NCBI GenBank assembly: GCA_943329845.2
Contig: CALQFM020000017.1
Location: 1 to 59,814, forward strand
Length of the DNA stretch: 59,814 bases
Source: Candidatus Kuenenia stuttgartensis
Lineage (GTDB): Bacteria; Pseudomonadota; Alphaproteobacteria; SMXS01
Reading direction: 5' to 3'
The notes beneath the pieces are model-generated. The model was not told the origin of the DNA and did not search any database. It saw only the letters and a list, made by a program, of their open reading frames with translations. Of this stretch, positions 53,603-54,976 are shown in pieces. The translations under genes were made by a program, and so were the position numbers. Each line of letters starts with the position of its first letter. Position 1 is the stretch's first letter.

Positions 53603-54310
53603 TCAGCCGGAACGCGGCGACGAAAGGCGTTCCGCCGCGCCGTAGACGTCACCCGCCACCCTTTCGAGCGCGCCGCGGTCGGCGACGGTGATCAGGCCGC
53701 GACGCGAGGTCAGAATGCCTTTCGTCTGGAGAGCCTGGAGTGTCAGGGAGACACCGGCGCGCCGGACGTTCAGCATCAGCGACAAAATCTCGTGGGTCAT
53801 GAGCAGCTCGTCGCCCGGCGAGCGGTCGTGATACATCAGCAGCCAGCGCGCGAGGCGTTCTTCGAGCGTGCAGGACGCATTCGCCAGCGTGGTGCCGGCC
53901 ACCTGGACCAGCAGCGTGTGGGAGTAGCGGAGCAAGGCGCCGCGGAGAGTATCGCTCCGCTGCATGGCGTCCTGCAGCGCGGGTACGGCGATCCGGTAGG
54001 CTTGTCCTGGCGCCTGCACGAAGACGCGCAGCACCGACTGGTCGAGCGTATGCAGGACGGCGACGTCGACCATGCCGTCACGGCCAACCAGACCCACCTC
54101 GGTCTGATCGCCGCGCAGCGTGCCGGCGACAATCGACGCAATGCCCGCCTCGATGAACCAGCAATGCTCGATTTTCTCGTCCGGTTCGATCAGCACCTGG
54201 TACCGGGTCAACTCCACCAGTGCGAGATGCGGCATCAGAAGCGCCAGGTCGTCCGCGGACAACCCAGCCAACAGCTGATTGGTAAGCGTTGCGACGCTTG
54301 TGGATTCCAC
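53603..54310 (-). CDS. Crp/Fnr-family transcription regulator
   Basis: 235 residues. The N-terminal cNMP-like domain (LALVELTRYQVLIEPDEKIEHCWFIEAG, VGLVGRDGMVDVAVL) lacks the four-Cys cluster of FNR. The C-terminal HTH_Crp is LMTHEILSLMLNVRRAGVSLTLQALQTKGIL. The effector is unknown. Divergent from a response regulator over 306 bp containing two 5-N4-5 palindromes, the spacing used by FNR-class regulators. Confidence 0.92.
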   Translation of the reverse strand: MESTSVATLTNQLLAGLSADDLALLMPHLALVELTRYQVLIEPDEKIEHCWFIEAGIASIVAGTLRGDQTEVGLVGRDGMVDVAVLHTLDQSVLRVFVQAPGQAYRIAVPALQDAMQRSDTLRGALLRYSHTLLVQVAGTTLANASCTLEERLARWLLMYHDRSPGDELLMTHEILSLMLNVRRAGVSLTLQALQTKGILTSRRGLITVADRGALERVAGDVYGAAERLSSPRSG

Positions 54311-54430
54311 AGTGCCTCCCGTCTGCCCGGGCGGGAGGACCTACTCTCAGCCGGCTGCGCCCATTGAGCATCTGCAGCCGATGCCCCTCATTTAGGTCAG
54401 CTAGGCTAATTTCCCAAGAATCGTCCGTCA

Positions 54431-54444
54431 GTACGGACACGTAC
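54431..54444. promoter_or_regulatory. Palindrome GTACG-N4-CGTAC, site 1
   Basis: GTACGGACACGTAC. Identical arms to site 2, centre-to-centre distance 60 bp. Located 121 bp upstream of the Crp/Fnr start. Confidence 0.6.
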
Positions 54445-54490
54445 ATAATGATCGTTGATTGGAAATTTACTTGGCACTAAGCACTATTCT

Positions 54491-54504
54491 GTACGTTATC
54501 GTAC
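54491..54504. promoter_or_regulatory. Palindrome GTACG-N4-CGTAC, site 2
   Basis: GTACGTTATCGTAC. Located 113 bp upstream of the response regulator start. The 5-4-5 geometry equals that of FNR boxes (TTGAT-N4-ATCAA) with another half-site. Confidence 0.6.
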
Positions 54505-54616
54505 GTTGGTTCGTGATATTACTTTCTTCCGATGCGGCTCGTCCTCGCCTGGACACGGTGTTCCGACGACGATCAGCTCCCAGTGTTTCATGGGGAAATT
54601 CCCGAGGCGACACGAG

Positions 54617-54976
54617 ATGCTTGACGGCGCGCCCATTCTCATCGTCGAAGACGAGCCTTTCATCGCCATGGACCTGGCCGATGCTGTCAGGGCGGCCGGC
54701 GGGTCCGTGATCGGGCCGGTCACGACCGTCAGGGAAGGCCTGGCGCTGGTCAGGGACGCGCCTGTCGCCGGCGCGATCCTGGATTGCCACCTCAAGGACA
54801 GGGATGTATCGCCACTGGCACAGGTGCTGCTGGGGATCGGTACTCCGCTCGTCGTCTATACCGGGTCGGCGCTGCCACAGGCGCTGGCGCAATGGCGCAC
54901 CGAAATACCGATGATCAGGAAATCGGAAAGCCCCGGCGAAGTCGTCGCGCTGCTGGTGGCGCTCATCTGCGACTGA
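54617..54976 (+). CDS. Single-domain response regulator (CheY-like)
   Basis: 119 residues from ATG 54617. REC fold with acidic pocket Glu11-Asp12, phospho-acceptor Asp56 (AILDCHLKD), Thr82 (VVYTGS) and Lys102 (MIRKSES). There is no output domain. This type works in phosphorelays or by protein contact in alphaproteobacteria. No histidine kinase is adjacent. Confidence 0.9.
   Translation: MLDGAPILIVEDEPFIAMDLADAVRAAGGSVIGPVTTVREGLALVRDAPVAGAILDCHLKDRDVSPLAQVLLGIGTPLVVYTGSALPQALAQWRTEIPMIRKSESPGEVVALLVALICD

Follow-up and report, generated by a model that had tools for sequence, protein, structure and literature searches.

The window analyzed here, a stretch of 59,814 nucleotides, is contig C17 of its source genome (G000; 3.68 Mb in 107 contigs). 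It carries a gene for a Crp/Fnr-family regulator on the minus strand, referred to as crp below, and a gene for a single-domain receiver (REC) on the plus strand, and between these two genes lie two palindromes of the pattern GTACG-N4-CGTAC, box 1 and box 2 (Table 1). A sequence-only reading of this DNA had earlier described two 14-bp sites with identical arms and with centers 60 bp apart. Both sites are present exactly as described, and the distance between their centers is 60.0 bp. A sigma-70 scan for a promoter around the boxes found nothing sigma-70-like.

Table 1. Positions of genes, boxes, and leader elements at the crp-REC locus, with further leader copies
Feature	Position	Strand	Basis
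Crp/Fnr-family regulator (crp), 235 aa, GTG start, HTH helix NVRRAGVSLTLQ	53603..54310	-	PF13545 HTH_Crp_2
5' leader region of crp, core GGCUGAGAG-N6-CCUCCCGCC	54308..54392	-	conserved sequence
Inverted repeat CCUCCCG / CGGGAGG in leader	54315..54338	-	moderate support
Box 1, GTACG-GACA-CGTAC, crp side	54431-54444	.	exact pattern match
Box 2, GTACG-TTAT-CGTAC, REC side	54491-54504	.	exact pattern match
Single-domain receiver (REC), 119 aa, PhyR/PRK13435-like	54617..54976	+	profile matches below the models' own cut-offs
Other leader copies	L001 298-382 (C16); L055 1222-1306 (C24); L105 2396-2482		

The twin boxes are not a product of chance. When the intergenic region (54311-54616) was shuffled 20,000 times with its dinucleotides preserved, at least one exact site arose in 5 shuffles and two sites in none, and any pair of 5-4-5 palindromes sharing the same arms arose in 3. 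A genome scan for GTACG-N4-CGTAC, as proposed in the earlier reading, yielded 3 exact sites in the source genome, two of which are the twin of the window. Because the same genome holds 31 sites at up to one mismatch, a lone site is unremarkable and it is the pair that is notable. Of 385 genomes of the class, 3 contain an exact pair whose sites are separated by 30-60 bp, namely the source genome, the congener G005, and G184, where the pair is a tandem repeat.

Profile searches place a Crp-type winged HTH at the C terminus of the regulator (PF13545, 47.9 bits against a cut-off of 27). For the N-terminal part of the usual Crp/Fnr architecture, a beta barrel of the cyclic-nucleotide-binding type followed by a long helix, PF00027 cNMP_binding scores 22.1 bits, below the cut-off of 27.5. 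A structure model of the protein is weak (pLDDT 63.9, pTM 0.50) and has CRP/FNR chains as its best fold matches. At the position of the GTG start, the ortholog of the congener G002 has an ATG. In proteins of the FNR class, four cysteines hold a [4Fe-4S] cluster; the window protein has only two cysteines in its 235 residues, which fits its earlier description as cluster-less. The receiver protein has no Pfam match at E 0.001 and no output domain, and the acidic E11-D12-E13 as well as D56, T82, and K102 are present in it as read by eye. As a lone receiver domain that is PhyR/PRK13435-like by profile matches below the models' cut-offs, it resembles the MrrA- and SdrG-type receivers of the alphaproteobacterial general stress response, but here the gene is divergent from crp and has boxes of its own.

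Six genomes of the same genus (G001-G006) were compared with the window. An ortholog of the regulator with 71-79% identity is encoded in four of them and none in the other two. Both boxes are exact and 60 bp apart in G005; the spacing is again 60 bp in G004, with an exact box 2 and one mismatch in box 1. In G001, box 1 is exact and box 2, 61 bp on, is without its right arm; the REC gene there (contig C117, L053 345-705) is readable in two frames only, and it may be decaying together with box 2, or the assembly may be at fault. G002 keeps the regulator gene and an exact box 1, and both REC and box 2 are absent, the next gene being a permease-like frame that in the window is located beyond REC. 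Over the five genus members with a crp gene, box 1 is exact in four and carries one mismatch in one, and box 2 is exact in G000, G004, and G005. The arms of box 1 are kept while its spacer bases vary (GACA, AACA, GGTG, GGTG, and GACG), and constant arms around a variable spacer are the pattern expected of a protein-binding site. The joint loss of REC and box 2 points to an assignment of box 2 to REC and of box 1 to crp. At 60, 60, 60, 61, and 64 bp among the genus members and Microvirga terrae, the spacing between the boxes is not strictly fixed.

Loss of the palindromes with retention of the genes had been named beforehand as an outcome that would speak against the earlier reading. Within the genus we found a co-loss in G002 and a broken REC frame in G001, and the reading was not refuted. 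The comparison of divergent regions in relatives that it had also proposed revealed that the crp-box-REC layout recurs in the genus and in Microvirga terrae. Another version of the crp upstream region of G001, on contig C15 (L052 ~1300-1760), ends just past the leader described below in unrelated sequence; this break resembles an insertion or a strain variant, and the version on C117 continues to REC.

Beyond the genus, we collected 47 regions upstream of crp homologs (-380 to +20), leaving out the window. Of these, 25 came from a class-wide search of the 385 genomes (five further matches without a locus were left out, and L132, without a tblastn hit, was dropped), 19 from named plasmid records hand-picked for rank and variety among 364 records with a homolog, and 3 from other sources (the source genome's own paralog, L028, and L029). 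A GTACG box with up to one mismatch is present in 15 of the 47 regions, in counts that do not collapse the near copies L028/L179 and L177/L178 and the close relatives L110/L111. Among all 1,024 pentamer palindromes, GTACG ranks first over the 47 regions, followed by GCCGC with 11/47, and in 200 shuffles of the regions GTACG averaged 0.2 and never exceeded 2. By source, the box was found in 5/25 regions from the class search, 10/19 from plasmid records, and 0/3 of the others. It occurs in 15 of the 32 nearer homologs, defined by 131 bits or more to the window protein, and in none of the 15 farther ones; for the remaining 17 nearer homologs, the 380 bp upstream contain no box. Named carriers are Microvirga terrae, Mesorhizobium jarvisii, Azospirillum brasilense, A. 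lipoferum 4B, Indioceanicola profundi, Shinella sp. HZN7, Neorhizobium galegae, Methylobacterium sp. FF17, Sinorhizobium meliloti 1021 (pSymA), and Sphingobium herbicidovorans. In a tree of 48 homologs, the box has a patchy distribution and is present in both main branches. It is only loosely clustered on the tree: it requires 11 gains or losses, shuffling the labels gives 14.1, and a value as low was reached in 28 of 500 shuffles. A literature search, judged from titles, found no published description of the GTACG box.

The paralog of the source genome on contig C24 (44% identity) has a one-mismatch box ~390 bp above the crp start, past the 380-bp cut and therefore outside the 15/47. A frame of ~70 codons lies there between the box with its leader and the crp paralog (L055 ~1000-1215). 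The Microvirga terrae plasmid pR24_1 was examined over its first 50 kb, where all 7 boxes (up to one mismatch) fall within 20.6-26.9 kb and adjoin four crp genes, one REC gene, and genes for DUF6894 proteins, a family for which our literature search found nothing. Twin boxes 64 bp apart are located between a crp and a REC gene of this island; one of them overlaps the annotated REC start, which may have been placed too early, and a later start codon would be needed. A receiver gene lies within 2-2.5 kb of crp in 3 of the 13 plasmid loci that carry annotation (L105, L176, and L178). The partnership of crp with a receiver gene recurs, and it is not general.

A set of 28 sites, the two of the window included, was compared with the 27 other one-mismatch sites of the source genome as background. 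The two central spacer bases, which are outside the search pattern, are both A/T in 25/28 sites compared to 2/27 in the background (Fisher p 3e-10). Among the arm mismatches of the 28 sites, 13/17 fall on the A of GTACG, and the flanks of the arms show a preference for T at -1 and A/T at -3; the refined pattern reads WNTGTnCG-N-WW-N-CGnACANW. Box 1 of the window belongs to the three sites that lack an A/T center. The twin sites have identical arms but are not equivalent in this respect.

These data bear on the possibility that the sites are GTAC-rich palindromes that arose by chance or for structural reasons and have no regulatory meaning. Single exact sites are present in 22 of 60 relatives, one exact site in G005 lies within a folK-like coding frame (C1:75626; named by eye), and in G184 a palindrome inside a 30-bp repeat unit imitates twin boxes and looks unrelated (L058 1501-1574), all of which such a reading would accommodate. 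It is strongly disfavored, and to our minds hardly credible, in view of the lack of a second site in any of the 20,000 shuffles, the enrichment across families, and the combined fingerprint of an A/T center and preferred mismatch position.

The FNR box, TTGAT-N4-ATCAA, likewise consists of two 5-bp half-sites and a 4-bp spacer, and the half-site of CRP is TGTGA. With arms of GTACG, the boxes of the window depart from both half-sites, as had been stated. The 5-4-5 layout, known for FNR, is what the locus has in common with FNR, FixK, and DNR systems, from which it differs by the absence of a TTGAT half-site, of the recognition residues E and R, and of a four-cysteine cluster. Similarly, it shares with E. 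coli CRP a likely fold class, a 2-fold symmetric site, and R180 together with a G at -7, but the TGTGA half-site, E181, and R185 are missing, and the Pfam cut-off is not reached by the cNMP_binding match.

In CRP, R180 contacts the outer G of the half-site, and E181 and R185 contact the inner G-C pair. In the window protein, R180 is kept and E181 and R185 are replaced by A and L, respectively. The three residues are given as the base contacts of CRP in PMC12531629, which treats the set as a usual trait of the Crp/Fnr family and not as a strict criterion. We found R180 in 48/48 homologs. In the 17 box-bearing homologs, counting the window protein and its own paralog, P, A, or S occupies position 181, and T, V, L, D, or H is found at position 185. 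A similar helix is present in the 16 nearer homologs without a box, with E181 in one and R185 in none. Since these mostly share the helix type, the helix by itself does not predict the presence of a box. With R180 retained for the outer G and both E181 and R185 lost, a branch would be expected to read a G at -7 and no G at -5, and the loss of the two residues would permit a half-site that has G at -7 and A-C at -5/-4. The helix residues thus appear to agree with a reading of the GTACG box by this branch.

The box of NtcA, a CRP-family protein of cyanobacteria, is given as GTAN8TAC in the abstract of PMC3898017, and the boxes of the window conform to it in outer triplets and spacing (GTA-CGNNNNCG-TAC). 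By alignment, NtcA has an R at the position of R180 and a V instead of E181. Differences are that the inner CG is also fixed here, that NtcA keeps R185 where the box-bearing homologs have T, V, L, D, or H, and that the organism, the neighboring genes, and, as far as is known, the signal are others. Dependence on cAMP and control by 2-oxoglutarate and PipX are further traits of CRP and NtcA, respectively. The recognition helix of NtcA, GSTRVTVTRLLGDLR, is absent from the regulator, which has NVRRAGVSLTLQALQ. A possible new specificity had been suggested from the sequence before. The outer triplets are those of the NtcA box as given in PMC3898017, and because GTA...TAC is shared, the specificity appears to be a new variant of a known, NtcA-like one.

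We consider it probable that GTACG-N4-CGTAC is an operator of an alphaproteobacterial branch of Crp/Fnr proteins that includes the neighboring protein, and that it serves this protein's own gene and the receiver gene. The regulator would bind both boxes, one dimer per box, and set the output of crp and REC. Box 1 would act on the regulator's own gene, and box 2 on the divergent gene for the single-domain receiver. Binding by this protein and autoregulation are what we infer for the window; the role of the receiver protein is likewise putative, and the regulator-REC circuit proposed earlier could be constituted in this way. It is alternatively conceivable, and in our view unlikely, that a different regulator, either another Crp/Fnr paralog or a member of another family, binds the boxes and that the neighboring protein, instead of binding them, is a target. 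The 17 of 32 nearer homologs without a box are consistent with such an arrangement, as are the four crp genes within one box-rich island in Microvirga and the second crp homolog of the source genome on C24, whose own one-mismatch box makes cross-regulation possible. Against it stand the recurrence of the box before crp homologs of several orders and in both main branches of the tree, the Crp/Fnr-like character of a 5-4-5 layout with an A/T center, and the persistence of crp and box 1 in G002 after the loss of REC. Comparative evidence supports the adjacent regulator as the likely binder, as the sequence-only reading had it, with the nearer homologs lacking a box as a point that weighs against this assignment.

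In addition to the boxes, the region upstream of crp contains a conserved leader, which is presumably transcribed with crp. It consists of GGCUGAGAG, a short gap, CUCCCGCC, a hairpin partner that contains the ribosome-binding sequence, and the start codon; the 3' arm of the inverted repeat holds the likely ribosome-binding sequence before the crp start. The leader core CTCTCAGNCGGCNGNGCC is found exactly in three places of the source genome (C16, C17, which is the window, and C24), in each case 84-94 bp below a box; the box is exact at C16 and C17, and the one at C24 has a single mismatch. At C16 (L001 298-424), this third box and the leader copy lie beside queA (by eye) at a contig end; no crp is visible, and only a frame of ~47 codons follows. 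In 15 homolog loci, 8/8 leader-pattern matches have a box 73-117 bp above. Of the 15 upstream regions with a box, 6 show the leader pattern and the other 9 (L107, L110, L112, L115, L180, L185, L188, L189, and L190) do not.

A sequence-only model built from 11 leaders was used to search the 385 genomes of the class at E up to 0.01 per genome. Matches were obtained in 31/385 genomes, and 35 of the listed matches were examined; as the E-values apply per genome, several weak matches across 385 genomes are attributable to chance. An obligatory association of the leader with the box was rejected. Defining strong matches by E under 1e-5 and leaving out the known copy of G103 and, within the own genus, six copies that are crp-type or bear a box, we found that 11/11 other strong class-wide matches have no box with up to two mismatches in the expected stretch. 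As a control, boxes with up to one mismatch were found in 0/1,244 stretches of 80 bp from the same loci. The strong matches without a box imply that the leader is a separate element of wider occurrence, which accompanies the box at crp in some cases. It appears to be an undescribed leader that is widespread in alphaproteobacteria before crp, DUF6894, and other genes, with a box or none. A search of Rfam 15 gave no leader match up to E 1 in the window stretch or at six loci, and the one Rfam match in the six loci (L108 4764-4808) lies away from the leader.

Over 34 instances of the leader pattern, one of which is inside a transposase gene and is a chance match, the best helix of the last hairpin has a mean of 6.3 pairs compared to 5.3 in shuffled tails, and a helix of six or more pairs is present in 21/34. 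The arms of the hairpin change, for example, GCGCUCC/GGAGCGC in comparison to GUGCUCC/GGAGCAC. On these grounds, a hairpin over the ribosome site is moderately supported. Single-sequence folding energies of the leader were no better than those of shuffles in 5/5 folds. An alternative pairing of GGCUGAGAG with CUCCCGCC is unproven because it is nearly invariant in the seven sequences compared. By covering the ribosome-binding site, the last hairpin of the crp leader could add a translational check, a role that we infer for the leader. One might ask whether the leader RNA, and not the palindrome, is the principal conserved element of control, with the palindromes added in a lineage-specific way, as the 11 strong leader matches without a box could be taken to indicate. 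We think this very improbable, given that 9 of the 15 box-bearing regions have no leader pattern, which argues for a box that is independent of the leader.

Returning to the box as the operator of a Crp/Fnr branch, a broader proposal can be made that we regard as possible, if doubtful. The locus might exemplify a wide two-layer module of alphaproteobacteria, in which a Crp/Fnr branch with R180 only reads TGTnCG-N-WW-N-CGnACA at its own gene, at genes for lone receivers, and at genes for DUF6894 proteins, and in which a new family of mRNA leaders has GGCUGAGAG and the ribosome-binding sequence compete for CUCCCGCC. Crp/Fnr genes of this type, for which we found no described targets, occur in rhizobia, Methylobacterium, Azospirillum, and sphingomonads. 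A box that can be read from sequence would offer a direct handle on the branch, with crp, REC, and DUF6894 genes as candidate targets and with a prediction of the residues that read it. It would also test how DNA sites respond when the Glu181/Arg185 pair is lost.

A genome-wide regulon signal was considered and rejected, as matches in the source genome are not clearly commoner than those to the backwards control: exact sites numbered 3 compared to 6, one-mismatch sites 31 compared to 187, and refined sites 10 compared to 9. In four congeners, the refined pattern and its backwards control gave 11/12, 5/5, 5/7, and 13/9 matches. As the refined pattern is not clearly commoner than its control, any regulon has to be very small. 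Inspection by eye of the one-mismatch sites at C31, C32, and C59 and of two at C5 showed no gene or leader in common. The one-mismatch box at C5:26643 (L207 1544-1557) is upstream of an ECF-sigma-like gene of the general stress response (named by eye); it may be due to chance because its center is not A/T. In G005, an exact intergenic box with extended symmetry (C1:928314; L226 1515-1528) is located ~100 bp upstream of a 123-codon frame.
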